Part shown: in pieces, positions 7,247 through 59,483 of the stretch | Numbering within the stretch: the stretch's first letter is position 1 | Layout: each line of letters begins with the position of its first letter | Assembly (NCBI GenBank): GCA_902702965.1 | Contig: CACRXP010000434.1 | Coordinates: 79,162-143,161 of the forward strand | DNA: 64,000 nucleotides | DNA from: Spirometra erinaceieuropaei | Taxonomy: Eukaryota > Platyhelminthes > Cestoda > Diphyllobothriidea > Diphyllobothriidae | Direction of reading: 5' to 3' | Notes under the pieces: model-generated | The model's database searches: none | Told to the model about the DNA's origin: nothing | Seen by the model: the letters and a program-made list of their open reading frames with translations, nothing else | Program-made: the position numbers and the translations under genes

Positions 7247-7513
7247 TTACCAACCCCAACCCCAGCCGCAGCCATGATGGTGGTGGCAACAGTGGTGATG
7301 ATGGTGGCAGCAGGGGCGCCAGCAACATCCGTGGTGGTGATGACAGCCACCCCACCAACCGCCGCCGCAGGCTGGAGACACTGCACCCTCGTCCTCCTTC
7401 GCGACGAACTCCCCCTTCGACAGATCCTCCTCTGGCTCCTCCTTCCTCGCAGTCTTCGCCAGGGTCATCTGCACCAGCACGCCGAGAAGCAAAATTGTTA
7501 GGAATGTTTTCAT
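7247..7513 (-). CDS. HCW peptide, copy A (secreted Cys/His/Trp-rich)
   Basis: Encodes 88 residues in one exon. Residues 1-19 are a signal peptide (MKTFLTILLLGVLVQMTLA). Residues 20-48 are a charged, acidic pro-region (KEEPEED and KEDEG). The mature core (49-88) has nine Cys (49, 57, 63, 64, 68, 69, 75, 76, 82), thirteen His in runs of 4, 5 and 4, and six Trp (53, 54, 65 and the GWGWGW tail). The ATG was chosen because the signal peptide starts there. The frame is open further upstream but lies in the 5' UTR. Odd points are WRP instead of WRR in the core and GEFV instead of GEVS in the pro-region. Function unknown. Composition suggests metal binding, cross-linking or antimicrobial action, but this is inference. 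Confidence 0.7.
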   Translation of the reverse strand: MKTFLTILLLGVLVQMTLAKTARKEEPEEDLSKGEFVAKEDEGAVSPACGGGWWGGCHHHHGCCWRPCCHHHHHCCHHHHGCGWGWGW

Positions 7514-7572
7514 TGTGACCGCTTCTGATGTCCTGTTTGGTTTGACGATGCAGCCACCCAATCCGCCCTCCC

Positions 7573-7579
7573 TTTTATA
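7573..7579 (-). promoter_or_regulatory. TATA box, gene A
   Basis: TATAAAA on the minus strand, followed by GGGAGG, 60 bp upstream of the ATG. Position and context are the same as in the other intact HCW copies. Confidence 0.75.
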
Positions 7580-8170
7580 CACATTCCGGGAGTGCGGTTA
7601 GGGAACATTAATGGACGTGCGCGTACACAACCTACCTTAGAAAAGTGTACTTTTGTTACTTCTGCGTAGACAATCAAGTAAACAAACAGAGGACGGACCT
7701 CGCCCAAAATTTGACAACTTCCGTTGGCATCAAGCACGAAATTGCAAACAATTCGAACACATGTCACACGACTGAAGATAGGGTCGCTGAGCCAAACAAG
7801 ATCGCCGACGTGAAGGAATGAACTTCAAAAAATATACCGTTTATTTCCAATTGGTCTCTCTACGATTTAACTGCCTATTCACTATACAGGCAGCTGGTCG
7901 TTATCTGTCGATCGAATATAACAATTTCTTGCAGACTGAGAAGTATAATTGACCCTGTTTAATGTAACTCAGAGGGTACAAGCGGATGGAAACATGGACC
8001 GGTTGAAGGGTTGTCAACTAGGGAGTCTGAGGTTGATTTCTCTTGTGAGGACACTTGCACTCTTGATCCAGCCACCTGACACTGGCGAGGTCCTCCCGGT
8101 TTTGGCCTATAGGCGTTCTTCTGTTTTTTTAGAAGAAAAGATGGCGAGCGAACGTTACTTTCGATAACTT

Positions 8171-8639
8171 CTCGTCAGGCCAGCACAGTTATATGGGACG
8201 GGGTACAGTGAGGGAAAAAAATCGATAACAGTTAACTTCTAAAATACAAGCTAGGCAAGAGCGGAAGGGCGCAGAGAGTTGCATGTGGTTAGTCGACCCT
8301 TGACCACTGTAAGCGCGGAGCCCGAACGAGGTTCTTCTGGGTGCATAGGGTCGGTTTTCGTAACCTGATGTCGGCCGCTTCTGCTGTTGCTAACAAGCGC
8401 TGTCCCAGTAGCTTAGGTAGCTCGAGGGGACCTTGTAACTCCCACGAAATGCTTCAGCGGGCTGCACACGATGCCTGAATCCCCTGTATACGCAAGGATG
8501 GTGCTGTCTATTCTCCTAGTTTCACCTTTTGCCAGCCATGCAGGAAGGTGCTCTCGTATTCCCTTGGAGAGGCGCCGACTCGTACTACCAATGTAACCTG
8601 CTGCACAGGTTTAAAAATTGGTATTTTTGACTGCGAATT
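8171..8639. other. Unit A interior, no recognised feature
   Basis: Lies between the two recognisable parts of unit A. No gene and no clear match to the linker block of B or C; probably degenerate. Confidence 0.35.
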
Positions 8640-9030
8640 GACTGCGCGCTTCGCCTGTCAAAACCCATTCTGTCCCCGTTCCGATGGAGTGCATCTTTTG
8701 AGCAACTCTCCGCACTGCAGAGGCCGATGCGCGTGGGATAAATCCAGCAAGACAGGCGCGCGCAAAGGGCGTGCATATGCACGCCAGACGGATCAACGCA
8801 TAAGGCGTGCTTGCTGTGAAACCCTGAATGGTACTCATGGAGGTAGTTGGGGGCAAGAGACGCGATCACTGGGCCAGATTCATTCGCCGTCATCTCCACC
8901 GTCATCTCGCCATCATCTTAAATCAGCATGCGCTTTTTTGGAATGGAGTTGGAGGCAGAGTCGTTTGTAGTTTAAGATTGAGGGCTACGTAGTTGATTTA
9001 CTGATTGATATTATGACTAGAGGGTCAGCG
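8640..9030 (-). repeat. Distal remnant of unit A
   Basis: Low-identity match to the far end of units B and C (about 26,270-26,560): CTGCAG..GGAATAAAT-like block, ATTCATTCG.CGTCATCTCC, GGAGTT..AGTCGTTTGTAGTTTAAGA and TATGACTA. Part of the gene-less half is therefore present here, but its middle is lost. Confidence 0.45.
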
Positions 9031-9664
9031 TTTGACATTATTTCTGAAGTTTACACTTTATTACAGTGTTCGTGTTTGTCTAATCTGTGCTATCGGTTGC
9101 TGCAGGAACAAATACGGACATTTTGCTCCAGGAATTCCGGCTGAACGTTGGAATGCTGGTACCCGTCGGAATAAAACTCGAGGTAAAACAGCCAAATAAG
9201 AAGCAGACTCTATCTCACAAATTTAGGTTCAATCACTCACCCGACGAAATGGCACGAGGGAGGAGTAAGCCTAACTGACGCATAATGCTTGAACAAAATG
9301 CGCCTGTAGGTAGTTCGCATTTGCATGCTAGCTTACTAATGTTTACGGGTGCCTCGGACCGGAGCCTAATTTAGATTAGTTGAAAAACACAAGGAAGGTA
9401 TGGAAATGAGCAAGGAGACTTTGAACGGTGAGCGGAATAAATGCATCCTGGCCTCAGATTGGGAAGAAAAGCAAGTGAAGGCGAACAACCAATGGGAAGA
9501 AGGCAACTGGTCCGAAGATCATTCCGCAGTGTGTGCGATAGAACTCCGTCCAACATAATGGACAGAAGAACACGAGAGTCAGGCAGCGGCACGCGGGACG
9601 CCACAACGTAAGTCAGGTAAGACTTTTATGCGAAAAATTGGTTTGGGCGGAAGAGAAAATCCGC
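9031..9664. other. No recognised feature
   Basis: No gene, domain or repeat match seen. Confidence 0.4.
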
Positions 9665-10600: not shown

Positions 10601-10603
10601 GAA

Positions 10604-12230: not shown

Positions 12231-12269
12231 AATTTGTATAAACCTCATATAGTCGTCTCCTACTAACGT

Positions 12270-12620: not shown

Positions 12621-12627
12621 TGAATTA

Positions 12628-16927: not shown

Positions 16928-17194
16928 TTACCAACCCCAACCCCAGCCGCAGCCATGATGGTGATGGCAACAGTGGTGATGATGGTGGCAACAGCGACGC
17001 CAGCAACATCCGTGGTGGTGATGACAGCCACCCCACCAACCGCCGCCGCAGGCTGGAGACACTGCACCCTCGTCCTCTTTCGCACTGACCTCCCCCTTTG
17101 ACAGATCCTCCTCTGGCTCCTCCTTCCTCGCAGTCTTCGCCAGGGTCATCTGCACCAGCACACCGAGGATCAAAATTGCCAGGAATGGTTTCAT
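16928..17194 (-). CDS. HCW peptide, copy B
   Basis: 88 residues, single exon. Signal peptide MKPFLAILILGVLVQMTLA, acidic pro-region to residue 48, then a core with nine Cys, His runs of 4, 5 and 4, WRR between the second and third CC pairs, and a GCGWGWGW end. The first five signal residues and the ILIL segment are shared with copy F, while the C-terminus is like A, E and G, so the copy looks mosaic. TATA box, start and polyA signal are all intact, so this copy is probably expressed. No known family recognised. The near-invariant core compared with copy D argues that the core is the selected product. Confidence 0.75.
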   Translation of the reverse strand: MKPFLAILILGVLVQMTLAKTARKEEPEEDLSKGEVSAKEDEGAVSPACGGGWWGGCHHHHGCCWRRCCHHHHHCCHHHHGCGWGWGW

Positions 17195-17253: not shown

Positions 17254-17260
17254 TTTTATA
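17254..17260 (-). promoter_or_regulatory. TATA box, gene B
   Basis: TATAAAA on the minus strand 60 bp upstream of the ATG, followed by GGGAGAGCGG. About 45 bp further upstream is TTTGACGTGCGCGCAC read toward the distal side, a CRE-like half site inside a GC-alternating stretch. Confidence 0.75.
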
Positions 17261-20200
17261 CCCACAAGAGAAGTGCCATTAGGGAACATTATTTGACGTG
17301 CGCGCACACAACGTACCTTAGAAAAGTTTATTCTTTTTGTTACTTCTGCCTAGACAAGCAATCAAGTAAACAAACCCAGCGCTGACAGCGCCCAACATCT
17401 GGCAAAATTTCGTTGACATCAAGCACGAAGTGCTTACAATTCAAACACATGTCACATGACGGAAGGCAAGGCGGTCAGATGTGGTTATGCAGCTCCGTCT
17501 GAAGTATAAAAAAAACCCTAGCCACCTGTAATACGGGACCGATGGGGATAGGCGTTTTTACAGGTGGGACCGGGAAACGCCCAGGCGACGAGGCCAAGTA
17601 GTTGTATGCAAAATAAAAGCCATTGAGAATGCGCCGTTGTCCTTTGAATGGTTGAGAAATAGTTGCCCTAATCCACACCCCTCACCCTAACCCCTAGCTC
17701 TAACCCCTAGCCCCAACCTCTTACTCTTATTTCCAACTCCAACAGCATTGTGTCCATCAAGTGGGGCTACATAACCACATCTTACCGACAAGGTAGAATA
17801 TGTGACACACTACAGTGGCTACGTTACGTTGAAGAAATAAACGTTGAAAAAAGTGCAGTTGAATTCAAACTGGTTTATTTACGATTTTACTGATTATTCA
17901 CTATATTAGTCATGTGGTGATAACTGTGGGCTTAATATATTACTTGCTCCTCCGTTGAAAAGCATAATCGGTCCTGTTTAATGTAACTTAGAGGAAACAC
18001 ACCGGTAGAAACATTGCCCGTATGAACGGCTGTCAACTGGTATTCAGAGATTGGTTGCTCGAGGTGGGACCCCTGCACTGCTGATCCAGACTACCGAAAC
18101 TTGCGGTGTTCTTCCGTTTTTCGCCTACAGGTGTTCCTTTTGTTCATTTTGGCTTTCAAATTTGTACTTTTCGATTACGTTTAGCAGCCTAATTAAGGAC
18201 GTGGAGTGGGGCTTATTTGATAGATTTTACCCATTCGCGTCATTAAAATCCTTCTTGATATCATCTTCAGTGGATATTCAGTAGAACTTTAAATCCAGGT
18301 TACTACCTGTTCGGACGTTTTTCCCTTCCGTGAGATCAGGCAAATTCTTAACGGTTCAAGAGGTCCTCCGTATCACATTAAACCCACAGACGCCTTTTTT
18401 CCTTTCGTCATTTTAGCCTCCCGCTATTCTCCTCTTGCTTGAAAAAATCTTTACTTAGAACGGACATAGGCACAAGCCAAGGGCTTGGAAGACAACTTAT
18501 TTGATGACTATTAACCTTGACTGTCGTCAAACGTTCTGCTGATATCATCTTCTTTCTTTTCATATCTTCCATTATTTGACAATATGGCCATGTGCGAAGG
18601 CTATATTAGTTGGTTGGAGCTTCCTAGTAGTAACTACCAAGCCACTATAAGGAAGAACGAGGGTGAATCTCTTGAAAACCTCGTTCGAAAAGCATTTAAG
18701 GTGACAGTAGAAACATATCAGGCCACTGAGTTTCCTACAGAGTGATCGCAACGCCAGTGACATGCACGTGGACTAATTTATAGCATAGCAGATTTGAGAG
18801 TAGCATCTATCATATCCTGTCTCACCTTCTCACTTAAATCTTTCCGATGCAAGAAAGTGTCAAGACTACCCGAGCCGGGCTCGAGCCCAGTAGATGCACA
18901 CATATGCCGGAATACAAAGTTGAAACCAGTTGTCCCAGGTTGCCATGCATACGCCGGAAACTTGATACAAAATTTGTCTGGAACAAGACTCGTAATATAG
19001 GTGCCTGACCATCTAAGAGAAGGCGGGGATTTTTAGAGGCCATTTATTCTGATAACTCGTGCATCAATTGACACATCGAATTGCATGCTATCTGCAACAA
19101 TCTCAAGGAAAAGTGGCAAAGGTTTGAGCTTATCAGAGAATGCCTACGCGTGCTGCACACGCAACGTGCCGGCGACAGCAGAATCACCAGAACACTGCGA
19201 GGTCAGCTGGGATCTCACGTGAATCAGACTGCCATAGCAGTCGCTGCAAGAAGCAGTCGGTGAAGCCGGACACCTAGTTCTAAGATAGGCTCACCTATCC
19301 CGACAGATGGCAGCTTTTCCAGGTCACGACTGTTAGCCTGTCGTGATGGCATTGTAGCACTTCGGCCTTTTTACTGTTAGGCATAAGCTAATGTGCTGCA
19401 AGAAGGGATCCTACAAATTCAACCATGCCCGCTATAGTCTACGGTGCGAGTCTCACAATAAACTGGTGATGGGATTGGGCGCAGTGGATAATGCGGCGTA
19501 AGAGCCACTAAGGCGTGCCACTACATGCATACACGGCCAATTCCACACTCTTCCCGGTCAACGCCTGCGCCAAGTCATCCGGACACCACTTCGATCGAGA
19601 GACTCTGTTGCGCAGCTCCTTGAACTGCAGTGCACCTGGAATCAATTCAGCAAGCCACGCACGAACGTGTTCCCACATCGTGTACCAAACCACTATAGGA
19701 GGGCTTCAGATCTCACACGCCCGAAAGTGCTGTAATGATCACACAGACTACTGCGGCACACCTCAACGTCTAGCCACGCCAACTTCATCCCCAAAACCGC
19801 ACTTTGCCCTTTGCTTAGCTTTCGCATAACACTTACCAGGAGATTCCTCACACAGAGTGAACTGTGAGCATGATCGCGACTAGTACGGTCACCCTGAGTA
19901 TTCCATGTTTCCCCTATCGATCAGCTTAAATTTCGTGATTCTAAAAATCCGGCAGCTTCAATTCAACTCTTTGCCACGTTGCATGTCGCCTACGTTGAAT
20001 GCGCAGGATTCTAGAATAGATGACGGTCGTCTGGGTGGCGTAATGCCTCCTTTTCTGGTCAGCATTTTTCACAAGAATTCCAGTTCATTTTATATTTTGT
20101 CGCAGCCTTGAATATATAATTCACCATGTTTAATATAACGTAGAGAGTAAAAGTGACTGGAAACATTGCCAGAGTGAACTATTGCTTGGACTGGTGACCC

Positions 20201-23095: not shown

Positions 23096-23102
23096 TTTTA
23101 TA
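23096..23102 (-). promoter_or_regulatory. TATA box, gene C
   Basis: TATAAAA on the minus strand 60 bp upstream of the ATG, preceded by CCGATTGGG as in the plus-strand copies. Confidence 0.75.
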
Positions 23103-26100
23103 CCCAATCGGGGAGTGCGGTTAGGAAATATTATTTGACGTGCGCGTACACAACGTACCTTAGAAAATAGTATTTTTTGTTACTTTTGCCTAGACAAACA
23201 ATCAAGTAAACAAACCCAGGGCTGAATGCGTCCAACATCTGGCAAAATTTCGCTGACATCAAGCACGAAGTGCAAACAATTCGAACACATGTCACACGAC
23301 TGAATTCAAGGCGGTCAGATGTGGCTATGCAGCCCCGTCTGAAGTAAAAAAAACCTTAGCCACCTTTTATACGGGACCGATGGGGATAGGCGTTTTTACA
23401 GGTGGGACCGGGAAACGCACAGGCGACGAGACCAAAGTAGTTGTATGCAAAATAAAAGCCATTGAGAATGCGCCGTTGTCCTTTGAATGGTTGAGAAATA
23501 GTTGCCCTAATCCTCACCACTCACCCAAACCCCTAGCTCTAACCCCTAGTCCCAACCTCTTACTCCTAACCCCAACCCCAACAGTATTGTGTCCATCAAG
23601 TGGAACTACATAACCACATCTTACAGACAAGGTAGAATATAAGACACACTATAGTGGCGCCGTTAAGTTGAAGAAATAAACGTTGAAAAAAGTGCAGTTG
23701 AAAGCAAACTGGGTTATTTACGATTTTACTGACTATTTACTATATTAGTCATGTGTTGCTAACTGTGGGCTTAATATATTACCTGCACCTCCGTTGAAAA
23801 GCATAATCGGTCCGTTTTAATGAAACTTAGAGGAAACACACCGGTAGAAACATTGCCCGTATGAACGGCTGTCAACTGGGCTTCAGAGATTGGTTGCTCG
23901 AGGTGGGACCCCTGCACTGCTGATCCAGACAACCGAAACTTGCGGTGTCCTTCCGTTTCTCGCCTACAGGTGTTCCTTTTGTTCATTTTTGTTTTCAAAT
24001 TTGTACTTTTTGACTAAGTTCAGCAGCCTAATTAAGGACAGAGAGTGCGACTTATTTGATAGATTTTACCCATTCGCGTCATTAAAATCCTTCTTGATAT
24101 CATCTTCAGTGGATATTCAGTTGAACTTTAAATCCAGGTTACTACCTGTTCGGACGTTTTTCCCTTCCGTGAGATCAAGCAAATTCTTAACGGTTCAAGA
24201 GGTCCTCCGTAGCACATTAAACCCACAGACGCCTTTTTTCCTTTCGTCATTTTAGCCTCCCGCTATTCTCCTCTTGCTTGAAAAAATCTTTACTTAGAAC
24301 GGACATAGGCACAAGCCAAGGTCTTGGAAGACACCTTATTTGATGACTATTAACCTTGACTTTCGTCAAAAGTTCTGCTGATATCATCTTCTTTCTTTTT
24401 ATATCTTCCTTTATTTGACAATATGGCCATGTGCGAAGGCCATATTAGTTGGTTGGAGCTTCCTAGTAGTAACTGCCAAGCCACTATTAGGAAGAACGAG
24501 GGTGAATCTCTTGAAAACCTCGTTCGAATAGCATTTAAGTTGACAGTAGAAACACATCAGGCCACTGAGTGTCCTACAGAGTGATCGCAACGCCAGTGAC
24601 ATGCACGTGGACTAATTTATAGCATAGCAGATTTAAGCGTAGCATCTATCATATCCTGTCTCACCTTCTCACGCAAATCTCTCCGATGCAGGAAAAAAGG
24701 CAAGACACCCACTCCAAGCTAGATCGCAGTGGATAAAAAAATACAAAAGAGAATGCCTACGCGTGCTGCACACGCAACGTGCCTGCGACTGCAGAATCAC
24801 CAGAACACTGCGAGGTCAGACTGCCATAACGGACACTTCACAAAAGAGTCGGTGAAGCCGGACACTTAGTCCTAAGATGGGCTCAGCTATCCCGTCAGAT
24901 GGCAGCTTTTCCAGGCCACGACTGTTAGCCTGTCGTAATGGCATTGTAGCACTTCGGCCTTTTTACTGTTAGGCGTAAGCTTATGTGCTGCAAGAATGGG
25001 TCCTACAAAGTCAATCGCGCCCGCTATATTCCACTGCCCGAGTCTCCCAACCAACTTATGATGGGATTGGGCGCAGTGAATGGTGCGACGTAAGAGCCAC
25101 TAAGGCGTGCCACTACATGCATACACGACGGCACTTGTGGGCCAACTCCACACTCTTCCCCGTCAACACCTGCGCCAAGTCATCCGATCTCCACTTCGGT
25201 CGAGTGAATCTGTTGCGCAGCTCCTTGAACTGCAGTGCACCTGGAATAAATTCAGCAAGGCAGGCACGAACGTGTTCCCACACCATGTACCAAACCACTG
25301 TAGGAGGGATTCAGATCTCACACGCCCGAAAGTGCTGCAATGATCACACAGGCTACTGCGGCACACCACGACGTCTAGCCACGCCAACTTCATCACCAAA
25401 ACCGCACTTTGCGCTTTGTTTAGCTTTCGCATAACACCTACCAGGAGATTCCTAACACCCAGTGAGCTGTGAGCATGATCGTGACTAGTACGGTCACCCT
25501 GAATATGCCATACTTCCCCTATCTATCAGCGTAAATTTCGTGATTCTAAAAATCCGGCAGCTTCAATTCAACTCTCTACCACGTTGCATGTCGCCTACGT
25601 TGAATGGGCAGGATTCTAGAAGAGATGACGGTCGTCTGGGTGGCTTAATGCCTACTTTTCTGGTTCACATTTCCACAAGAATTTCAGTTCATTTTATATT
25701 TTGTCGCCGCCTTAAAGGTATAATTCACCGGGTTTAATATAACGTAGAGAGTAAGCGCGACTGGGAACATTGCCAGAGTGAACTTTTGCTTGGACTGGTG
25801 ACCCACCAAATCAGCACTTGCAAGGTCTTCCCGTTTTCCGTCTGCGGGTGTTCCTTTGTATGTTGGCATTTTTAAATAACGCTTAGCAGACAGATTAGAG
25901 ACCTGGAATGTGGCTTGTTTGGGTTATTTTAACTTTTCATATCGTCGAAACCCTCGTTGATATCACCTGATGAGGAAATTCGAGAAAAGTTCAAATTCAG
26001 GCTATTGCCTGTCCGGACGTTCTGTTTATCGACGGGGTCAGAGAGATAGCTCTTGAAGTCTGGTTAGGTTTCCACAGCACCCGGATGCCTTTGCTCAGCA

Positions 26101-33361: not shown

Positions 33362-34239
33362 GCTGGATTAGGGAGGAAGAATTTATGGGTTTGTTTGACA
33401 CTGAGCTACAGGAATGCCTTTTGTTACTTGGTAGTAAGCGAACATGTGCGTAAACAAGGCGAGTGTTGCTGTTGCTGTCTGAGTTGATTTTGGCGTATGG
33501 TAGATGATTGAAGTAGGGAGAATGCTCGATGGCTTGTTTTGAGGATTAAGCATGTTGATGTTTACTGATGTTATTGTGGACGGAGGGTTGGTTTTCATTG
33601 TGGTGTCCAAGTCTTGCCGTTGCATAATTTCGACTCTTGACACCGGCTATTTCTTATTAGGCTCAAGGGAGACGGACGGCGTGGCCATTTCTGGCTTACT
33701 TCCCGTCATCAGTCAACTTTGAGGTTTGGGAAGACCTGTGACTCCAATGCACAGTCTTTTGATTCTTATTATTCCTACGCGCTTACCACTGATCAGTGCA
33801 CTGACTCCTTCTGCTGTCGTTTTTGATCTGTTCTATTATTTATTTTGGTTTTTTTCTTTCGTCATTAATTTTCTCATTTTTTTGATCTCTTCTCTGCCGT
33901 GTTTTTGGAATTTCTACTTTCTTCATCATTTATTGACCTGGTTACATTTTTTTCTACATTTCCTTGCTTGAGGTACTGCCTTATGCTGTTGATCGTACTC
34001 CGTTTGTGGGAAATAGGGTGGTTGTTCTCACATCCTCCCTCACCAGCATCTCACCGCACATCAAAATCACCCACTGCAAGCCCCCCAACTGCCACCTTCA
34101 ACTCAAGTGGTAAGTGTGTGTCTCGACTCTTTCGCCATGCGGCTCCTCTGCTGCATGTGTGATCGGAGTCTGAGACGAAGACGGTACGTTGAGCTCCTTG
34201 GCTCGGATACCAGCCAACTGACGCCTCAACTCAGTCCGC
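33362..34239. other. No recognised feature
   Basis: Between gene D's promoter and the Penelope RT. Includes a T-rich stretch at about 33,820-33,970. No gene supported. Confidence 0.4.
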
Positions 34240-36153: not shown

Positions 36154-36211
36154 AGGCGTTTTTCAGGCGACTGTCAGTTTTCGAAACATGACTTGCCTCG
36201 CAGATATCTAG

Positions 36212-36669
36212 GTGTCGAAGACCCGTATCAATCTTCTCGGAAATAAAACGATCTCCGAACCGGGATTGTGGAACCGTCCCTTCGACGAAATTTGCAGCGC
36301 GGTGCACAACACTACTGAAGAGGTCCTGAAGAATAAGTATATGGAGCGCATGGAGAACGCGGCGGGCAGGTGCACGAAGACGAAGATAAGTTTGAAAGTG
36401 AAGCTAGAGAAAACGCCAATTTTCAAGCAGAGCCGACGGGTCCCGTTTGCGGTACAGTCGTCCGTAGAAGCTGAACTAGAAAGACTACAGGCAAAGGGCA
36501 TAATCTATCCTACCAATTATTCAACTTGGGCTGCTCCAGTCGTGGCGGTGAAGAAACCCAACGGACAAATAAGATTATGTGCGGATTATTCCACGGGCTT
36601 GAACGACGCACTAGAAGATTATCATTACCCGCTGCCAACCTTAGAGCAGATTTTTGCTACTCTAAATGG
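36212..36669 (+). pseudogene. Gypsy reverse transcriptase, N-terminal part
   Basis: Contains LEKTPIFKQSRRVPF, the VEAELERLQAKGII segment, WAAPVVAVKKPNGQIRLCADY and the LPTLEQIFATLNGGK segment, the usual finger and palm start of Ty3/gypsy RT. A frameshift at about 36,670 moves the rest into another frame. Confidence 0.8.
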
Positions 36670-37701: not shown

Positions 37702-37735
37702 GAAGACGTGGTTGTCGCCAACACGATAATGCAAG

Positions 37736-38650
37736 ATGATGACGAGTTTAAAGGTGTCATTTGGCAGTTGCCGTTTCACAGCAGACCCCCTTTTGCGTCA
37801 GGTGAAAGAGTTTATTCGGAACGGTTGGCCCAGCGACGACAAAGTACACCCGTCGATAAAGCCTTGCAGGAACAGAAAGGAACAGTTGTCTATCACGGAA
37901 GACTGCATAATGTGCGATGGTAAAGTGGTGATCCCAGCCAGATACCAACAACAAGTTTTGCGGGAGCTCCATGCCGGACATCAGGGTATGACCCGCATGA
38001 AACAACTGGCCCGCAAGTACGTATATTGGCCGGGAATTGATAACGACGTGGAGTCTTTCGTTCGAAGCTGCGGCCCGTGTGAACATGAAGCTAAGAACCC
38101 ACCGAGATTACCGCCCGTGCCATGGCCAGAGGTAACGAGACCTTGGAGTAGAGTCCATATGGACTTCGCGGGTCCGTTTTTTAACCGAATGTTTCTAATA
38201 GTTGACGATGCATGGTCCAAGTGGCTAGAAGTTTTCGACGTCTCGGCAGCGACCGCTGATCTCACGACAAGGAAGACGGAAGAAGTAATAGCGAAATACG
38301 GCATCCCCACGGAGATTGTGACGGATAACGGCACTCAGTTCGCGTCATCGGTTTTCCAACAACTGTGTCAGAAATGGGGGATTCGACATGTGACGTCACC
38401 ACCATTCCATCAACAATCGAATGGCCAGGCAGAAGGTTTCGTCGACACGTTCAAGAGACCGATGAAAAAGATGTGGAACACTGGTGATAAACTGGAGTAT
38501 CTCAACACATTCCTTTTTGCCTATCGAACAACTCCAAAAAGTGATCTTCGTGGCCAGACACCAGCCGAACGGTTTTTGGGACGACAGCCGGATACGCGAC
38601 TACAGTACCTACAACCGGGAGCTCGAGTTCCAAAAACAACAAAGCATTAA
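37736..38650 (+). pseudogene. Gypsy integrase
   Basis: 304-residue frame. The zinc-binding HHCC motif is at H79, H82, C112 and C115. The core DDE triad is at D143 (HMDFAGP), D197 (VTDNGTQF) and E233 (NGQAEGF), with the normal 35-residue spacing of the last two. The Arg usually following the Glu is Gly. The frame ends at a TAA (38,648-38,650) in the middle of the protein. Confidence 0.85.
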
Positions 38651-39357: not shown

Positions 39358-40488
39358 AACAACATGGAAGAGAGGGAGGGTAAAACGATGGGAGGAAAAA
39401 TGAAAAGATCAAACGGCGTCTGTGGGTCTTATGTGCTACGGAGGACTTCCTGAGTCCTTAAGCATTTGTTTGATCTCAAGGAAGGGAAAAACGTCTGAAT
39501 AGGTAATAACCTGGATTTAAACCTTTAGTGAATACCGACTAAATGTAATATCAAAAAGGGTTTTGATGACGCAAATGGGTGAAATCTATCAAACAAGCCA
39601 CATCCTACGTCTTTCATAAGCTGCTAAAAGTATTCAAAAAGTACAAATTTGAAAGAAAAAATATGAACAAAAGGAGCACATGCAGGCGGAAAAGGGGAGG
39701 ACACCACAATTGCCAATAGGCTGGACCAGCTGTGCAGCGGTACTCCCTCGAGCAACTAATCTCTGAATCCCAGTTGACAGCCGTTATCCGGGCATACCGG
39801 TGTGTTCCCTCTAAGTTACATTCATCAGGGTCGATTATGCTTTTCAGCAGACGATCAAATATTATGTTCAACCCACAATTAACAACACGTCGATATTATA
39901 GTGAATAGTCAGTCAAATTGTAAAGAAGCCAGCATGAGTTCAACTGCACTTTTATCAACTTTTATTTCTTTAACGTCACCGAGCCCCTAGAGTGTGTCAA
40001 ATATTCTGCCCTGTCGGTTAGATGTGGTTATGCAGCCCCACCAGATGGACACAGAACTGTTGGGATTGTGGTTAGGAGTTAGAAGTTGGGTCAACCATTT
40101 CACAACCGGTCAAATTGGAACCGCGCATTCCCAATAGTTTTTCTTTTGCATACAGTTACTTGACCCCGTCGCCTGTGCGTTTCGCGGTCCCATCTGGTAA
40201 AAGCCCTATTACTACCGGTCCCATATTCAGGTGGCTGGGGTTTGTTTACTGCAGGTAGGGCTACATAACCGCATCTGACCACCTTGCCTTCAGTCGTGTG
40301 ACATGTGTTCGAATTGTTTGCAGTAGTGTCTGATGCCAACTAAAGTTGTCAGATGTTGTGTGCGATCAACCCGGAATTTGTTTACTCGATTGCTTGTGTA
40401 GGCAGAAGTAACAAAAAGAATACTATTTTCTGGGGAACGTTATCTGCGCGCGTCAATTAACGTTCCCTAATCGCACTCCCCGATAGGG

Positions 40489-40548: not shown

Positions 40549-40800
40549 ATGACACTGAAACCATTGCTAGCAATTTTACTTCTCGGCGTGCTGGTGCAGA
40601 TGACCCTGGCGAAGACTGCGAGGAAGGAGGAACCAGAGGAGGATCTGTCGAAGGGGGAGGTCAGTGCGAAGGAGGACGAGGGTGCAGTGTCTCCAGCCTG
40701 CGGTGGCGGTTGGTGGGGTGGCTGTCATCACCATCACGGATGTTGCTGGCGTCGCTGCTGCCACCACCATCATGGCTGCGGCTGGGGTTGGGGTTGGTAA
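40549..40800 (+). CDS. HCW peptide, copy E (probably decaying)
   Basis: 83 residues if started at the ATG at 40,549. The ATG used by all other copies is CTG here (40,555). A chance ATG two codons upstream restores a start, giving MTLKPLLAILLLGVLVQMTLA as signal peptide. The pro-region is intact. The core has lost one CC-polyHis cassette: only GCHHHHG, CCWRRCC and HHHHGCGWGWGW remain, with seven Cys. With the TATA mutation there are three changes in one copy, so expression is doubtful. It could still be translated from the new ATG if transcribed. Confidence 0.5.
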   Translation: MTLKPLLAILLLGVLVQMTLAKTARKEEPEEDLSKGEVSAKEDEGAVSPACGGGWWGGCHHHHGCCWRRCCHHHHGCGWGWGW

Positions 40801-43412: not shown

Positions 43413-46228
43413 AGTTCAAATATACCGCCTAATACTGAACCTTATGACTGGCCTTAGTCATAATGTCCAGCATTAGCTCACATACCCAGCCTTTATTCTT
43501 AAACTACAAACGAATTTAACTCCAGCCTAAATCCAGCAAAATGTAGGTGTTAATTTTAGGCAGGGGAGATGGCGACTAATGAATCTGGACCTACGTCTCC
43601 TGCCAGACGTAAATTACATCAATGCAATTCAGGGCGTGAAAACCATCATGTCCTAGACTTAAGCCCAGCTCGCCAGCACATTCATCTCCTCTACACGTAC
43701 TTGCCTTGCTGAATTTATTCCAGGTGCATTACAGTTCAAGGAGCTGCACAACAGATTCAGTCGACCGAAGTGGGGTCCGGATGACTTGGCGCAGGCGTTG
43801 ACCGGGAAGAGTGCGGAGTCGGCTCACAAGTACCGCCGTCTATGCTTGTAGATGTACACCTTTTTGCCTCATACGCCGCACCATCCATTGCACCCAATTC
43901 CATCATAAGTTGGTTGTGAGACTCGGGCAGTCGACTAGAGCGAGAGACGTCAACTCTGGAGAAATCGTCCTCACGGCACATTTGCGTATCTTATACAAGT
44001 ATGAATCGACGATGCTAAAATCCAACAACAACAACAACCACCCACATAACACACATCTAATACAGAAAGAAGATGCTTGAAATCCAGTGCGGATTAACCC
44101 CTGGCCGTCCTCTTCATAGGTGCTTAATGAGTTGGTGATATTGACGGTACGCACACGGGTACTCAGCAAGGCTCTATTAACTATGGACTAAAAGCATGTG
44201 CTGAGCAAAGGCATCCGGGAGCTGTGGAAACCTAACCAGGCTTCAAAAACTGTCTCTCTGACCCCGTCGATAAACAGAACGTCCGGACAGGCAATAGCCT
44301 GAATTTGAACTTTTCTCGAATTTCCTCATCAGGTGATATCAACAAGGGTTTCGACGATATGGAAAGTTAGAATAATCCAAACAAGCCACATTCCAGGTCT
44401 CTAATCGGTCTGCTAAGCGTAATTTAAAAATGCCAACATACAAAGGAACACCCGCAGACGGAAAACGGGAAGACCTTGCAAGTGCTGATTGGCTGGGTCA
44501 CCAGTCCAAGCAATAGTTCACTCTGGCAATGTTCCCAGTCGCTTTTACTCTCTACGTTATATTATACCTTCAAGGCTGTGACAAAATATAAAATGAACTG
44601 GAATTCTTGTTGAAATGTGAACCAGAAAAGTAGGCATTAAGCCACCCAGACGACCGTCATCTATTCTGGAATCCTGCCTATTCAACGTAGGCGACATGCA
44701 ACGTGGAAGAGAGTTGAATTGAAGCTGCCGGATTTTTAGAATCGCTAAATTTAAGCTGATCGATAGGGGAAACATGGCATATTCAGGGTGACCGTACTAG
44801 TCACGATCATGTTCACAGTTTACTGGGTGTTAGGAATCTCCTGGTAAGTGTTATGCGAAAGCTAAACAAAGGGCAAAGTGCGGTTTTGGTGATGAAGTTG
44901 GCGTGGCTAGACGTCATGGTGTGCCGCAGTAGTCTGTGTGATCATTGCAGCACTTTCGGGCGTGTGATATCTAAATCATTCCTACGGTGGTTTGGTACGC
45001 GATGTGAGAACACGTTCGTGCCTGCCTTGCTGAATTTATTCCAGGTGCACTGCAGTTCAAGGAGCTGCGCAACAGATTCACTCGACCGAAGTGGATTTCG
45101 GATGACTTGGCGCAGGCGTTGACCGGGAAGAGTGTGGAGTTGGCCGTGTATGCATTTAGTGGCTCGCCTTACTTGCTCTTACGCCGCACCATCCACTGCA
45201 CCCAATCCCATCATAAGTTGGTTGTGAGACTCGGACAGTTGACTATAGCGGGCATGATTGACATTGTAGGACCCATTCTTGCAGCACATTAGCTTAGGCC
45301 TAACAGTAAAAAGGCCGAAGTGCTACAGTGCCATCACGACAGGCTAACAGTCGTGGCCTGGCAAAGCCGACATCTGACGGAATAGGTGAGCCCATCTTAG
45401 GTCTGAGTGTCCGGCTTCACCGACTCCTTCGTGTATTGACTGTTATGCCAGTCTGATCCACGTGAGTTCCCACCTGACCTCGCAGTGTTCTGGGCATTCT
45501 GCAGTCGCCGGCACGTTGCGTGTGCAGCACGCGTAGGTATTCTCTTTTGTATTTTTTATCCACTGCGTTCTAGCTCGGAGCGGGTATCTCGCCATTTTCC
45601 TGCATTGGAGAGATTTGAGGGAGAATGAGAGACAGAATATGATAGATGCTGCGCTCAAATCTGCCCTGTTATAAATTAGTCCACGTGCATGTCACTGGCG
45701 TTGCAAGCACTCTGTAGGGCACTCAGTGGCTTTATGTGGTTTCACGGAACTGCTTTTCGAACGAGGTCTTCGGGAGACTCACCCTAGCTCTTCCTAATAC
45801 TGGCTTGGGATTTACTACTGGAAAGCTTTAACAAACTAATATGTCCTTCGCACATGGCCGTATTGTCAAACAATGGAAGATTTGAAAAGAAAGAAGATGA
45901 TATCAGCAGAACTTTTGACGACATTCAAGGTTAATAGTTATCAAATAAGGTGTCTTCCAAGCCCTTGGCTTGTGCCTATGTCTGTTCTAAGTAAAGATTT
46001 TTTCAAGCAAGTGGAGAATAGAGGAGAAATAATATGAGCTACATGAAGGAGCGGGAGGCTAAAATGACGAGAGGGAAAAAGAAAAGAGCAAAAGGCGTCT
46101 GTGGGTTTTTATGTGCTACGGGGGACCTCTTGAACCGTTAAGAATTTGCTTGATCTCACAGGTAGTAATCTGGATTTAAATTTCTACTGAATATCAACTG
46201 AAGATAATATCAACAAGGATTTAAATGA

Positions 46229-46452: not shown

Positions 46453-48033
46453 CAAATAAGCCACACTCCACGTCCTTAATTAGGCTGCTAAACGTAGTCA
46501 AAAAGTACAAATTTGAAAGCAAAAATGGCTAGATGGCGGTTGGTAGCCCTACGGTACCGAAAACTCACAGCTATCTGACTTACGGGACCTGTAGTAATAG
46601 GGGCTATACGGGTTGGGCAAATGAGTGGAGGCGTAAATGGCGCTTGTCGGGAATGCGTGGAATTGACGGAGAGATTTGAGTGAGAAGGTGAGACAGGATA
46701 TGATAGATGCTGCGCTCAAATCTGCCCTGTTATAAATTAGTCCACGTGCATGTCACTGGCGTTGCAACCACTCTGTAGGGCACTCAGTGGCTTCATGTGG
46801 TTCCACTCAACTGCTTTTCGAACGAGATCTTCGGGAGATTCACCCTAGCTCTTCCTAATAGTGGCTTGGGAGTTACTTCTAGAAAGCTTAAACAAACTAT
46901 TCTGGCCTTCGCACATGACCGTATTGTTAAATAAAGGAAAATATGGAAAGAAAGAAGATGATATCAGCAGGACTTTTGACGACATTCAAGGTTACAATTC
47001 ATCAAACAAGGTGCCTCCCAGGGCCTTGACTTGTGCCTATGTCCGTGTTAAGTAAAGTTTTTTTTCAAACAAGAGAAGAATAGAGGAGGAAGAAGGTGAA
47101 CTACATGAAAGAGAGGGAGGGTAAAATGACGGGAGGAAAAACGAAAAGAGCAAACGGCGTCTGTGGGTCTTATGTGCTACGCAGGAACTCCTGAAACGTT
47201 AAGAATTTGCTTGAACTCAAGGAAGGGAAAAACGACTCAATAGGTAATAACCTGGACACCACAATTGTCAATAGGCTGAACCAGCAGTGCAGCGGTACTC
47301 CCTCGAACAACTAATCTCTGAATCCCAGTTGGCAGCCGTTCATCCGGGCATACCGGTGTGTTCCCTCTAAGTTACATTCAACAGGGTCGATTATACTTTT
47401 CTGTAGACGATCAAATATTACGTTCAACCCACAGTTAACAACACGTCGATATTATAGTGAATAGTCAGTCAAATTGTAAAGAAGCCAGCATGAGTTCAAC
47501 TGCACTTTTATCAACTTTTATTTCTTCAACGTCACCGAGCCCCTAGAGTGTGTCAAATATTCTGTCCTGTCGGTAAGATGTGGTTATGCAGCCCCAACAG
47601 ATGGACACAATACTATTGGGATTGTGATTAGGAGTGAAGGGATGCGACAAACGGTCAAAGTGCAACCGCACATTCCCAAAAGTTATTCTTTTGCATACAG
47701 TTACTTGACCCCGTCGCCTGTGCGTTTCCCGGCCCCACCTGTAAAAAGCCCTATTACTACCGGTCCCATATTCAGGTGGCTGGGGTTTGTTTACTACAGG
47801 TAGGGCTACATAACCGCATCTGACCGCCTTGCCTTCAGTCGTGTGACATGTGTTCGAATTGTTTGCAGTAGTACCTGATGCCAACTAAAGCTGTCAGATG
47901 TTGCGTGCGATCAACCCAGAATTTGTTTACTTGATTGCTTGTGTAGGCAGAAGTAACAAAATGAATACCCATTTCTAGGGGACGTTATCTGCGCGCGTCA
48001 ATTAACGTTCCCTATCCGCACTCCCCGATTGGG

Positions 48034-48040
48034 TATAAAA
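48034..48040 (+). promoter_or_regulatory. TATA box, gene F
   Basis: TATAAAA 66 bp upstream of the ATG, preceded by CCCCGATTGGG. Upstream is GGGGACGTTA, GCGCGCGTCAATTAACGTTCCC, a slightly imperfect form of the inverted repeat seen in G. Confidence 0.75.
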
Positions 48041-48099: not shown

Positions 48100-48345
48100 A
48101 TGAAACCATTCCTAGCAATTTTGATCCTCGGTGTGCTTGTGCAGATGACCCTGGCGAAGACTGCGAGGAAGGAGGAGCCAGGGGAGGATCTGTCGAAGGG
48201 GGAGGTCAGTGGGAAAGAGGACGAGGGTGCAGTGTCTCCAGCCTGCGGCGGCGGTTGGTGGGGTGGCTGTCATCACCACCACCACGGATGTTGTTGGCGT
48301 CGCTGCTGCCACCATCATTGTGGAGGCTGGGGTTGGGGTTGGTAA
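48100..48345 (+). CDS. HCW peptide, copy F (short form)
   Basis: 81 residues, single exon. Signal peptide MKPFLAILILGVLVQMTLA as in copy B. The pro-region carries EEPGED and GEVSGKEDEG variants. The core is shortened: five His after GGC, then GCCWRRCC, three His and CGGWGWGW, with seven Cys. One CC-polyHis cassette is missing, as in copy E, but the end is of the CGG type found in copy C. Promoter, ATG and polyA signal are intact, so this shorter variant is likely expressed. Function unknown. Confidence 0.7.
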   Translation: MKPFLAILILGVLVQMTLAKTARKEEPGEDLSKGEVSGKEDEGAVSPACGGGWWGGCHHHHHGCCWRRCCHHHCGGWGWGW

Positions 48346-52290: not shown

Positions 52291-53869
52291 CCAATCCCAT
52301 CATCAGTTGGTTGTGAGACTCGGACAGTCGATTAGAGCGAGAGACGTCAACTCTGGAGAAGTCGTCCTCACGGCACATTTGCGTATGTTATACAATTATG
52401 AATCGACGATGCTAAAATCTAACAACAACAACCACCCACATGACACACATCTAATACAGAAAGAAGATGCTTGAAATCCAGTGCGGATTAACCCCTGGCC
52501 GTCCTCTTCATAGGTCCTTAATGAGTTGGTTATATTGACGGTACACACACGAGTACTCAGCAAGGCTCTTTTAACTAAGGACTAAAAGCTTGTGCTGAGC
52601 AAAGGCATCCGGGAGCTGTGGAAACCTAACCAGACTTTAAAAGCTTTCTCTCTGACCCCGTCGATAAACAGAACGTCCGGACAGGCAATACCCTGAATTT
52701 GAACTTTTCTCGAATTTCCTCATCAGGTGATATCAACAAGGGTTTCTACGATATGAAAAGTTAAAATAATTCAAACAAGCCACATTCCAGGTCCCTAATC
52801 GGTCTGTTAAGCGTAATTTAAAAATGCCAACATACAAAGGAACACCCGCAGACGGAAAACGGGAAGACCTTGCAAGTGCTGATTGGCTGGGTCACCAGTC
52901 CGAGCAATAGTTCACTCTGGCAATGTTCCCCGTCGCTTGTACTCTCTACGTTATATTAAACACGGCGAATTATACCTTCAAGGCTGCGACAAAATATAAA
53001 ATGAACGGGAATTCTTGTGGAAATGCGGACCAGAAAAGAAGGCACTAAGCCGCCCAGACGATCGACATCTATTCTAGAATCCTGCCCATTCAACGTAGGC
53101 GACATGCAGCGTGGCAGAGAGTTGAATTGAAGCTGCCGGATTTTTAGAATCGCGAAATTTACGCTGATCGATAGGGGAAATATGGCATACTCAGGGTGAC
53201 CGTAGTAGTCACCATCATGCTCACACTTCACTCTGTGTGAGGAATCTCCTGGTAAGTGTTATGCGAAAGCTAAACAAAGGGCAAAGTGCGGTTTTGGTGA
53301 TGAAGTTGGCGTGGCTAGACGTCGTGGTGTGCCGCAGTAGTCTGTGTGATCATTGCAGCACTTTCGGGCGTGTGAGATCTGAAGCCCTCCTACAGTGGTT
53401 TGGTACGCGATGTGAGAACACGTTCGTGCCTGCCTTGCTGAATTTATTCCAGGTGCACTGCAGTGCAGGGAGCTGCGCAACAGATTCACTCGACCGAAGT
53501 GGAGTCCGGATGACTTGGCGCAGGCGTTGACCGGGAAGAGTGTGGAGTTGGCCGTCCATACATGTAGTGGCACGCCTTAGTTGCTCTTACGCCGCACCAT
53601 CCACTGCGTCCAATCCCATCATAAGTTGCTTGTGAGACTCGCAGAGCGGACTATAGTGGGCATGATTGACATTGTAGGACCCATTCTTGCAGCACATTAG
53701 CTTATGCCTAACAGTAAAAAGGCCGAAGTGCTACAATGCCATCACGACAGGCTAACAGTCGTGGCCTGGCAAAGCTGCCATCTGACGGGATAGGTGAGCC
53801 CATCTTAGGTCTGAGTGTCCGGCTTCACCCACTCCTTCGTGTAGTTACTGTTATGGCAGTCTGATCCGC
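52291..53869 (+). repeat. 1,579-bp tract, identical to 56,097-57,675 (first copy)
   Basis: Every line I compared between this tract and 56,097-57,675 is identical, with a constant offset of 3,806 bp. Differences appear at once outside it: GCATCGTCC against GCACCATCC before, GATCCGCG against GATCCGCA after. Other unit copies differ at many sites over the same stretch. Confidence 0.75.
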
Positions 53870-56096: not shown

Positions 56097-57675
56097 CCAA
56101 TCCCATCATCAGTTGGTTGTGAGACTCGGACAGTCGATTAGAGCGAGAGACGTCAACTCTGGAGAAGTCGTCCTCACGGCACATTTGCGTATGTTATACA
56201 ATTATGAATCGACGATGCTAAAATCTAACAACAACAACCACCCACATGACACACATCTAATACAGAAAGAAGATGCTTGAAATCCAGTGCGGATTAACCC
56301 CTGGCCGTCCTCTTCATAGGTCCTTAATGAGTTGGTTATATTGACGGTACACACACGAGTACTCAGCAAGGCTCTTTTAACTAAGGACTAAAAGCTTGTG
56401 CTGAGCAAAGGCATCCGGGAGCTGTGGAAACCTAACCAGACTTTAAAAGCTTTCTCTCTGACCCCGTCGATAAACAGAACGTCCGGACAGGCAATACCCT
56501 GAATTTGAACTTTTCTCGAATTTCCTCATCAGGTGATATCAACAAGGGTTTCTACGATATGAAAAGTTAAAATAATTCAAACAAGCCACATTCCAGGTCC
56601 CTAATCGGTCTGTTAAGCGTAATTTAAAAATGCCAACATACAAAGGAACACCCGCAGACGGAAAACGGGAAGACCTTGCAAGTGCTGATTGGCTGGGTCA
56701 CCAGTCCGAGCAATAGTTCACTCTGGCAATGTTCCCCGTCGCTTGTACTCTCTACGTTATATTAAACACGGCGAATTATACCTTCAAGGCTGCGACAAAA
56801 TATAAAATGAACGGGAATTCTTGTGGAAATGCGGACCAGAAAAGAAGGCACTAAGCCGCCCAGACGATCGACATCTATTCTAGAATCCTGCCCATTCAAC
56901 GTAGGCGACATGCAGCGTGGCAGAGAGTTGAATTGAAGCTGCCGGATTTTTAGAATCGCGAAATTTACGCTGATCGATAGGGGAAATATGGCATACTCAG
57001 GGTGACCGTAGTAGTCACCATCATGCTCACACTTCACTCTGTGTGAGGAATCTCCTGGTAAGTGTTATGCGAAAGCTAAACAAAGGGCAAAGTGCGGTTT
57101 TGGTGATGAAGTTGGCGTGGCTAGACGTCGTGGTGTGCCGCAGTAGTCTGTGTGATCATTGCAGCACTTTCGGGCGTGTGAGATCTGAAGCCCTCCTACA
57201 GTGGTTTGGTACGCGATGTGAGAACACGTTCGTGCCTGCCTTGCTGAATTTATTCCAGGTGCACTGCAGTGCAGGGAGCTGCGCAACAGATTCACTCGAC
57301 CGAAGTGGAGTCCGGATGACTTGGCGCAGGCGTTGACCGGGAAGAGTGTGGAGTTGGCCGTCCATACATGTAGTGGCACGCCTTAGTTGCTCTTACGCCG
57401 CACCATCCACTGCGTCCAATCCCATCATAAGTTGCTTGTGAGACTCGCAGAGCGGACTATAGTGGGCATGATTGACATTGTAGGACCCATTCTTGCAGCA
57501 CATTAGCTTATGCCTAACAGTAAAAAGGCCGAAGTGCTACAATGCCATCACGACAGGCTAACAGTCGTGGCCTGGCAAAGCTGCCATCTGACGGGATAGG
57601 TGAGCCCATCTTAGGTCTGAGTGTCCGGCTTCACCCACTCCTTCGTGTAGTTACTGTTATGGCAGTCTGATCCGC
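56097..57675 (+). repeat. 1,579-bp tract, identical to 52,291-53,869 (second copy)
   Basis: See the first copy. It covers most of the gene-less half and part of the linker of unit F'. Confidence 0.75.
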
Positions 57676-59093
57676 ATGAGATCCCAGCTGACCTCGCAGT
57701 TTCTGGTGATTCTGCAGTCGCCGGCACGTTGCGTGTGCAGCACGCGTAGGCACGGATCGGTTGTCTTGCCATTTTCCTGCATCGGAGAGATTTGAGTGAG
57801 AAGGCGAGGCAGAACATGATAGATGCTTCGCTCAAAACTGCCTTTGCTAAAAATTAGTCCACGTGCATGTCACTGGCGTTGCAACCACTCTGTAGGGCAC
57901 TCAGTGGCTTTATGTGGTTCCACTCAACTGCTTTTCGAACGAGGTCTTCGGGAGACTCACCCTCGCTCTTCCTACTAGTGGCTTGGGAGTTACTACTTGA
58001 AAGCTTCAACAAACTAATATGGCCTTCGCACATGACCGTATAGTAATTTAAAAGACAATATGGAAAGAAAGAAGATGATATCAGCAGGACTTTTGACGAC
58101 ATTCGAGGTTACAATTCATCAAAAAAGGTGCCTCCCAGGGCTTGACTTGTGCCTATGTCCGAGTTAAGTAAAGTTTTTTTTTCAAACAAGAGAAGAATAG
58201 AGGAGAAAGAAGCTGTACAACATGAAAGAGAGGGAGAATAAAATGACGGGAGGAAAAAAGTAAAGAGCAAACGGCGTCTGTGGGTCTTATGTGCTATGAA
58301 GAACCTCCTGAACCGTTAAGAATTTGCTTGAAATCAAGGAAGGGAAAGACGACTGCATAGGTAATAACCTGGACACCACAATTGCCAATAGGCTGGACCA
58401 GCTGTGCAGCGGTACTCCCTCGAGCAACTAATCTCTGAATCCCAGTTGGCAGCCGTTCATCCGGGCATACCGATGTGTTCCCTCTAAGTTACATTAAACA
58501 GGGTCGATTATACTTTTCAGCAGACCATCAAATTTTATAGTAAACCCACAGTTAACGACACGTCGATAGTATAGTGAACAGTCAGTCAAATCGTAAAGAA
58601 GCCAACACGAGTTCAACTGCACTTTTATCAACTTTTATTTCATTAACGCAACCGAGCCCCTAGAGTGTGTTAAATATTCTGCCCTGTCGGTAAGATGTGG
58701 TTATGCAGCCCCACCAGATGGACACAATACTGTTGGGATTGTGATTAGGAGTGAGGGGTTGCGACAAACGGTCAAAGTGCAACCGCGCATTCCTAATAGT
58801 TTTTCTTTTGTATACAGTTATTTGACTCCGTCGTCTGTGCATTTTCCGGCCCCACCTGTAAAAATCCCTATTACTGCCGGTGCCATATTCAGGTGGCTGG
58901 GGTTTGTTTACTGCAGGTAGGGCTACATTACCGCATCTGACCGCCTTGCCTTCAGTCGTGTGACATGTGTTCCAATTGTTTGCAGTAGTACCTGATGCCA
59001 ACTAAAGCTGCCAGATGTTGCGTGCGATCAACCCGGAATTTGTTTACTCGATTGTTTGTGTAGGCAGAAGTAGCAAAAAGAATACCCTTTTCT

Positions 59094-59130
59094 AGGGAAC
59101 GTTATCTGCGCGCGTCAATTAACGTTCCCT
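59094..59130 (+). promoter_or_regulatory. Inverted repeat upstream of TATA, gene G
   Basis: AGGGAACGTTA (59,094-59,104) and TAACGTTCCCT (59,120-59,130) are an 11-bp perfect inverted repeat around TCTGCGCGCGTCAAT. Its centre is about 40 bp upstream of the TATA box. It is kept in copy E, has one mismatch in F and is weaker in B and C. A dimeric transcription-factor site is plausible but unproven. Confidence 0.4.
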
Positions 59131-59150
59131 AATCGCACTCCCCGATTGGG

Positions 59151-59157
59151 TATAAAA
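59151..59157 (+). promoter_or_regulatory. TATA box, gene G
   Basis: TATAAAA 66 bp upstream of the ATG, in the context GATTGGG before and GGGAGGGCGG after. Confidence 0.75.
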
Positions 59158-59216
59158 GGGAGGGCGGATTGGGTGGCTGCATCGTCAAAGCAAACAGGAC
59201 ATCAGAAGGGATCACA

Positions 59217-59483
59217 ATGAAAGCATTCCTGGCAATTTTGCTTCTCGGAGTGCTGGTGCAGATGACCCTGGCCAAGACTGCGAGGAAGGAGGAGCCAGAG
59301 GAGGATCTGTCGAAGGCGGAGGTCAGTGCGAAAGAGGACGAGGGTGCAGTGTCTCCAGCCTGCGGCGGCGGTTGGTGGGCTGGCTGTCATCACCACCACG
59401 GATGTTGCTGGCGTCGCTGCTGCCACCATCATCACCACTGTTGCCACCACCATCATGGCTGCGGCTGGGGTTGGGGTTGGTAA
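59217..59483 (+). CDS. HCW peptide, copy G
   Basis: 88 residues, single exon. Signal peptide MKAFLAILLLGVLVQMTLA with likely cleavage after Ala19. Acidic pro-region 20-48 with one change (LSKAEVS). Core 49-88 with nine Cys, His runs of 4, 5 and 4, and WWAGC instead of WWGGC. Start chosen at the ATG in ATCACAATG, after a short 5' UTR; the frame is open upstream but without ATG. Intact promoter and polyA signal. Together with B and C it is the best reference for the full-length form. Role unknown; secretion is supported by the signal peptide only. Confidence 0.75.
   Translation: MKAFLAILLLGVLVQMTLAKTARKEEPEEDLSKAEVSAKEDEGAVSPACGGGWWAGCHHHHGCCWRRCCHHHHHCCHHHHGCGWGWGW

Follow-up and report, generated by a model that had tools for sequence, protein, structure and literature searches.

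A 64,000-nucleotide stretch of the Spirometra erinaceieuropaei genome (contig CACRXP010000434.1, positions 79,162 to 143,161 of the forward strand; hereafter the window) contains seven genes and one relic of a family encoding small His-, Cys- and Trp-rich peptides, here named HCW. Given that the core of these peptides is strongly preserved by selection and matched none of the known families searched, the HCW peptide probably has a real function; among the explanations weighed below, we tentatively favour a peptide that is produced in bulk, secreted, for the most part unfolded and able to bind metals. The HCW family is large, so far Spirometra-only among annotated proteins and nearly missing from gene catalogues. 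Spirometra causes sparganosis, which makes a peptide that is multicopy, parasite-specific and probably secreted interesting both as a diagnostic marker and for metal biology at the host-parasite boundary. Further, HCW constitutes a natural low-complexity sequence of His, Gly, Cys, Trp and Arg in which selection on single residues is measurable.

HCW genes in the window and in the genome

Six-frame scans for open reading frames (ORFs) across the window recovered seven HCW ORFs of 81-88 amino acids (aa), three on the forward and four on the reverse strand. The initial annotation of this DNA had proposed seven coding copies (81-88 residues) and one relic, and its coordinates and layout were reproduced: a hydrophobic signal-like start, an acidic stretch, and a core of Cys, His, Trp and Gly with a WW pair and a GWGWGW end were all seen, as were the runs of 3-5 His between Cys in the window copies. 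The single RR pair attributed to the core was present in every window copy except A, which has RP. The HCW genes of the window are the following:

7247..7513, reverse strand: gene A, subfamily I, 88 aa, locus L007; core with RP for RR
16928..17194, reverse strand: gene B, subfamily I, 88 aa, locus L003; core equal to that of Spirometra sp. Aus1 protein P0001
22770..23036, reverse strand: gene C, subfamily I, 88 aa, locus L001
33029..33292, reverse strand: gene D, subfamily II, 87 aa, locus L025; the divergent copy of the initial annotation
40549..40800, forward strand: gene E, subfamily I, 83 aa, locus L011; without one CC-His module
48100..48345, forward strand: gene F, subfamily I, 81 aa, locus L012; without one CC-His module
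59217..59483, forward strand: gene G, subfamily I, 88 aa, locus L004
10458..10565, forward strand: HCW relic, with a stop inside the WW stretch

In gene E the ATG of the family is lost, and an in-frame ATG two codons upstream is usable.

The seven copies are only the window's share of the family, since the 758.7-Mb assembly containing it, in which 49 candidates were scored and all counts are lower bounds, holds at least 48 HCW matches with E≤1 on nine contigs, contig C20 being included only through a match of E 0.77. Thirty loci (L001-L030) were fetched, from which L024 and L026 were dropped because of in-frame stops; the remaining 28, together with one further open copy in L031, integrate the set of 29 open copies. 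These fall into subfamilies I (n=12, all window copies except D), II (n=13, including D) and III (n=4), with tree supports of 90/88, 100/100 and 98/98, respectively (28 copies, the L031 copy left out), and each subfamily is present on both contigs C434 and C481. All 29 proteins differ, with 23 distinct cores. HCW proteins are 81-91 aa long (window copies 81-88; P0001 of Aus1, 91). The reading frame is open within one exon in 29 of 29 copies, with strong purifying selection on its core; thus, it is not a chance frame. A chance or antisense frame was likewise ruled out by the distribution of variable core columns over the three codon positions (6, 6 and 30 of 40).

Selection on the HCW core

The ratio of nonsynonymous to synonymous change (dN/dS), summed over pairs of the 29 copies, was 0.42 for the signal, 0.45 for the pro-region and 0.044 for the core, and some ratios of the front were about 1 or more (signal within II, 1.09, and within III, 1.31; pro-region between II and III, 1.05). 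Selection on the core, originally deduced from copy D alone, is thus borne out on a larger set, and the comparison of leader and core suggested at that time placed the core far from 1. Over the 28 ungapped core columns dN/dS was 0.025 (bootstrap 95% range 0.008-0.069), against a 95% range of 0.26-0.64 for leader plus pro-region, the core being lower in 300 of 300 bootstraps. An alignment artefact of the His runs was ruled out, as the core ratio was still 0.037 without His columns, and the possibility of a C/T mutation bias was answered by C↔T variation at 1 of 20 nonsynonymous versus 15 of 21 synonymous column positions; the equivalent A↔G control was uninformative (1 of 42 nonsynonymous and 0 of 1 synonymous positions variable).

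As a neutral yardstick, degraded copies were compared with their best-matching intact copy, excluding the open copies L037 and L039 (subfamily IV, see below). Changes at codon positions 1:2:3 were 51:53:67 in 11 degraded copies (987 bases) and 29:30:41 in the seven of these with an in-frame stop (560 bases), versus 5:9:50 in the intact cores (26 copies; L011, L012 and L031m left out). The corresponding Fisher p-values, 8e-8 and 3e-6, respectively, are rough, because the intact comparisons are mutually non-independent. The His runs of degraded copies reached 38 (L033), 35 (L042), 10 (L034) and 14 (L041) residues, as though only intact genes kept slippage of these runs under control.

When six copies of subfamily I were compared with six of subfamily II, distant flanks were 0.605 and 0.623 identical, versus a shuffled baseline of 0.61, and identity rose from 0.70 in the signal to 0.85 in the pro-region and 0.96 in the core. 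The synonymous difference between both subfamilies was lower in the core (0.28) than in the signal (0.55); therefore, gene conversion of the core or a constraint at the DNA level may add to the core similarity, although conversion alone would not lower the dN/dS ratio.

Core composition and predicted structure

In the 29 open copies, 1144 of 1150 core residues are His, Gly, Cys, Trp or Arg, with 366 His (31.8%), 292 Gly (25.4%), 253 Cys (22.0%), 173 Trp (15.0%) and 60 Arg (5.2%); the six others are two Leu and one each of Ala, Pro, Gln and Phe. Tyr, Lys and acidic residues are absent from these cores. The core, of about 40 residues, is arranged as (HHHH)G-CC-W-RR-CC-(HHHHH)-CC-(HHHH)-GWGWGW, and follows the pattern SPAC-GG...CC-W-RR-CC with the exceptions of RP in copy A, RRRC in the L031 copy and SPTC in two copies. 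Run lengths vary (Gly 2-6; His 3-7 in 28 of 29 copies, the other having HHQH) and residue identity is kept, which, along with the CC-His module missing in genes E and F, suits a chelator or a cross-linker.

Preceding the core, the pro-region ends in a conserved KEDEGAVSPA stretch and carries a net charge of -3 to -7 in the 29 copies of subfamilies I-III; the core charge is +1 to +3, in addition to 12-15 His in 26 of them. A low-confidence structure model built from 8 sequences (mean predicted local distance difference test score, pLDDT, 51.4) was confident for the signal helix alone, with pLDDT below 50 for residues 25-88, and yielded no fold.

Gene anatomy and promoter

The HCW genes share a compact plan: one open exon, a TATA box some 60 nt upstream of the ATG and an AATAAA signal some 33 nt downstream of the stop. 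TATAAAA was found within 80 nt upstream of the ATG in 29 of the 30 fetched loci (the exception being L011, gene E, where the box is altered), and all 28 copies tested have AATAAA 30-34 nt past the stop. Furthermore, GTTTACT, whose GTTTAC part presumably resembles a forkhead site, was present in 27 of the 30 loci; the pair GTTTACT-N20-AGTAACAA, with up to 2 mismatches, in 29 (all but L024); and a stricter, longer pattern with AGTAACAAAA and TATAAAA, in 16. Within the window, the pair at up to 2 mismatches occurs seven times, once ahead of each gene A-G and nowhere else; when three mismatches were allowed, one extra, unrelated site appeared. The window promoters are located as follows:

7653..7687, reverse strand: pair GTTTACT-N20-AGTAACAA, gene A, 2 mismatches
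17254..17371, reverse strand: GTTTACT-N20-AGTAACAAAA ... TATAAAA, gene B
23096..23211, reverse strand: GTTTACT-N20-AGTAACAAAA ... TATAAAA, gene C
33421..33455, reverse strand: promoter pair, gene D, 1 mismatch
40380..40414, forward strand: promoter pair, gene E, exact; TATA box altered
47925..48040, forward strand: GTTTACT-N20-AGTAACAAAA ... TATAAAA, gene F
59042..59076, forward strand: promoter pair, gene G, 1 mismatch

Apart from the paired motifs and the TATA box, little of the promoter is conserved between subfamilies I and II (overall 0.67; 5' leader 0.60; baseline 0.61). A retrotransposon-borne gene is not supported, as the flanks differ between subfamilies and the promoter pair is common to them.

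A second, weaker promoter-like pair of the GTTGACTGTTGCATCGTTTGTCGACAAGTAGCAA type, with 2-3 mismatches, was observed in L031, L033, L034, L038 and at about position 32786 of the window (reverse strand), some 0.2-0.25 kb past the stop of subfamily II genes. Beyond it, L033, L034 and L038 each contain a degraded HCW copy, which suggests an old tandem pair.

Subfamily IV, a sister group with an Arg-rich core

Loci L037 (C434) and L039 (C481) contain open frames of 103 and 102 aa, respectively, that keep the signal and the KEDEGA motif, and are 94% identical over 809 bases including flanks. The promoter pair is present in both with one mismatch each; the scan for a TATA-like box identified one, differing at a single position, in L039 and none in L037. 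Their cores are composed of Arg, Cys, His, Gly and Ser, without Trp, and carry net charges of +19 (L037) and +18 (L039), and their pro-regions are more acidic (-9 and -8, respectively) than the -3 to -7 of subfamilies I-III. The retention of the front with a changed core, together with this pairing of charges, suggests a true pro-region, two copies being few for such a deduction. In L038, at about 5957-6326 (forward strand), an open HCW-like frame was observed whose core is shortened and whose pro-region contains a long insert of acidic residues and poly-Ala.

Relatives and family searches

A search with copy C against 5.8 billion sequences gave three proteins with E≤10, all from Spirometra: P0001 of Spirometra sp. 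Aus1 (91 aa), whose core is identical to that of copy B residue for residue, and two S. erinaceieuropaei models of 78 and 110 aa, whose first 37 residues equal those of copy C and L008, respectively, and then diverge. The latter two entries depart from the core after SPACGGG, as if mis-modelled. The inputs used to predict the Aus1 gene set are described as including spargana RNA-seq (PMC12249497, available text), which is no proof of P0001 expression. A profile built on 16 members, with the 7981 best word-sharing candidates scored, returned the same three Spirometra entries and an unnamed 98-aa protein (E 4.9), and residues 1-50 of copy D as query gave no candidate protein. Thus, no convincing relative outside Spirometra was found among the annotated proteins searched, in which such short genes are poorly annotated.

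No Pfam family exceeded its cut-off for three HCW proteins (GRP, 15.9 and 17.3 bits versus 30; Conotoxin, 16.7 versus 25.1; DUF5427, 10.3 versus 25.1; no match reported for the third protein). The single NCBIfam match for two proteins, at 14.7 bits, fell below the cut-off of 40, by which a ribosomally synthesized and post-translationally modified peptide of the multinuclear non-heme iron oxidase type (MNIO-type RiPP) was ruled out. Four PDB sequence matches (E 0.006-0.07) look compositional. The statement that no known family has this layout therefore stands, for curated families above cut-off and for convincing matches outside Spirometra. A description of the HCW family was not found in the literature surveyed, as far as the available texts go, few of them being subscription papers.

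Proposed function and alternative explanations

In the explanation that we tentatively favour, the multicopy, compact genes would be transcribed and provide a small pre-pro-peptide in bulk. The analysis shows the open genes, the family, its common promoter elements and the selection on the core; transcription, secretion (from the sequence), removal of the pro-region, metal capture, and the stage and place of use are what we infer. The predicted signal peptide would direct the product to the secretory path, where the acidic pro-region might keep the stored core soluble and charge-balanced until a putative later cleavage. The largely unfolded core would then present closely packed His and Cys ligands for the extracellular capture of transition metals (zinc, copper or nickel), and its Trp and Gly might provide flexible, sticky and self-associating ends. 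The core composition, the low core dN/dS with its C↔T control, the variable run lengths, the low-confidence order beyond the signal helix and the existence of known His-rich metal binders were counted for metal capture.

Metallothioneins are defined as Cys-rich proteins with no aromatic residues and little His, a definition that the HCW core fails with 15.0% Trp and 31.8% His. Tick microplusin is Cys-rich, with a six-Cys helical fold and without the CC/poly-His/GWGWGW layout of HCW, and no microplusin-type match was obtained in protein, PDB and Pfam searches. Helicobacter Hpn contains Cys pairs and, unlike HCW, is bacterial and is not known to have a secretion signal or Trp; protein and PDB searches gave no sequence relation between them. 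Both Hpn/Hpn-like and HCW display poly-His runs, and the available text of PMC8704837 ascribes nickel storage, sequestering and tolerance to Hpn/Hpn-like, of which the nickel-storing Hpn-like is a His-rich metal binder of comparable make-up; its reference list also names the tail of Helicobacter HspA, His-rich, Cys-rich and metal-binding. Microplusin and hebraein are, like HCW, His-rich animal peptides, and microplusin is reported to chelate copper and to starve microbes of it via His (PMC5198042, available text). Within Spirometra, P-ISF is a secreted Cys-rich protein whose family is expanded in Sparganum proliferum; it is a glycoprotein, and no His/Trp core is mentioned in the available text (PMC8166898).

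Several observations weigh against metal capture. The strongest argument against pure metal binding comes from the Arg-rich sister group: subfamily IV keeps nine Cys and has much of its His replaced by Arg, which suggests that positive charge, and not metal ligation, may matter in this part of the family. Furthermore, the central Cys spacing is largely constant (CC-3-CC in all but one and CC-3-CC-5-C in all but four of the 29 copies), which leaves a disulphide-ordered core compatible with the data, and the low-confidence model, built from 8 sequences, is barely informative about order.

Next in our ranking, and unlikely, is a precursor of a hardened secretion, either vitelline-cell eggshell, gland cement or capsule, in which core His and Cys would cross-link with quinones, by disulphides or via metal ions, and the many copies with like promoters would represent dose for bulk deposition. 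Diphyllobothriid eggs are shelled and tanned, and the at least 29 open copies, the TATA box in 29 of 30 loci, the AATAAA in 28 of 28 copies and a low-complexity core tolerant of run length agree with such a role. Nevertheless, the absence of Tyr and Lys from the core argues against classic tanning through the core by itself, although His and Cys can accept quinones; the trematode eggshell (TES) domain was not among the Pfam families with E up to 10 for three proteins; and, to our knowledge, eggshell proteins lack an acidic pro-region. Trematode vitelline proteins resemble HCW in being flatworm secretory products of a small gene family (six in the rumen fluke), but are typically of about 29 kDa with Tyr and TES, in contrast to the 81-91 aa, the Tyr-free core and the lack of a TES match of HCW (PMC11727788, available text, for the vitelline family). 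The same source, as far as available, reports that squid beak is hardened by adducts of His with 3,4-dihydroxyphenylalanine (DOPA) and that the rumen fluke eggshell lacks L-DOPA, with vitelline proteins having Cys at several Tyr sites, which counts for a hardened secretion; it also reports Cys as undetected in that eggshell by amino acid analysis, which counts against it (PMC11727788).

Somewhat more doubtful still is a cationic, pH-dependent antimicrobial or membrane-active peptide, whose acidic pro-region would mask the core until acid protonates His, rendering the core positive, and whose Trp would insert in membranes. Antimicrobial precursors with acidic propieces, such as alpha-defensins and others, consist of a signal, an acidic pro-region and a cationic Cys-rich core, an order that HCW reproduces with its signal-like start; moreover, subfamily IV swaps the core and keeps the front, and its two copies pair a core of +18/+19 with a more acidic pro-region of -8/-9. 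They differ in that conservation in subfamilies I-III is highest in the core and lower in the front: the core changes slowest, with no sign of diversifying selection, which is unusual for defence peptides, and no Pfam defence-peptide family was above cut-off for three proteins. Clavanins, in the available text of PMC5198042, are enhanced by low pH and His protonation, which counts for this alternative. Metal capture is thus favoured, followed by a hardened secretion and then by an antimicrobial peptide, three readings that overlap chemically.

A further, improbable reading is a new kind of animal secreted material peptide, namely the precursor of a Trp-bearing His/Cys metal-coordination polymer made of five amino acids. 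It would be encoded by a dose-amplified gene array under one promoter and would assemble extracellularly, cross-linked through metals and disulphides in place of DOPA chemistry and partnered by the Arg-rich sister. Finally, it is highly implausible that HCW is simple-repeat or transposon-spread DNA staying open by chance and not a selected gene family: transposon-like ORFs and repeated spacers abound in the window, and degraded copies reach poly-His tracts of 35-38 (L033, L042), but codon-position changes were 5:9:50 in intact versus 51:53:67 in degraded copies, subfamilies I and II share 96% core identity with flanks at the random baseline, and an identical core occurs in another Spirometra.

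Genomic neighbourhood

Between genes D and E, at 35560-38650 (forward strand), lies what we take to be a broken Ty3/Gypsy-like retrotransposon, with zinc-knuckle, reverse transcriptase/RNase H and integrase ORFs. Other segments presumably correspond to a fragment like a Penelope-type endonuclease (30935-31264, forward strand), a reverse transcriptase-like fragment (34226-34738, reverse strand) and a fragment like a non-LTR (long terminal repeat) reverse transcriptase (62956-63744, reverse strand). A spacer unit containing an 89-aa frame recurs between HCW genes at 25163-25432 (reverse strand), 44853-45122, 53261-53530 and 57067-57336 (forward strand), and spacer stretches of 1.5-3.7 kb displayed about 89-91% identity.

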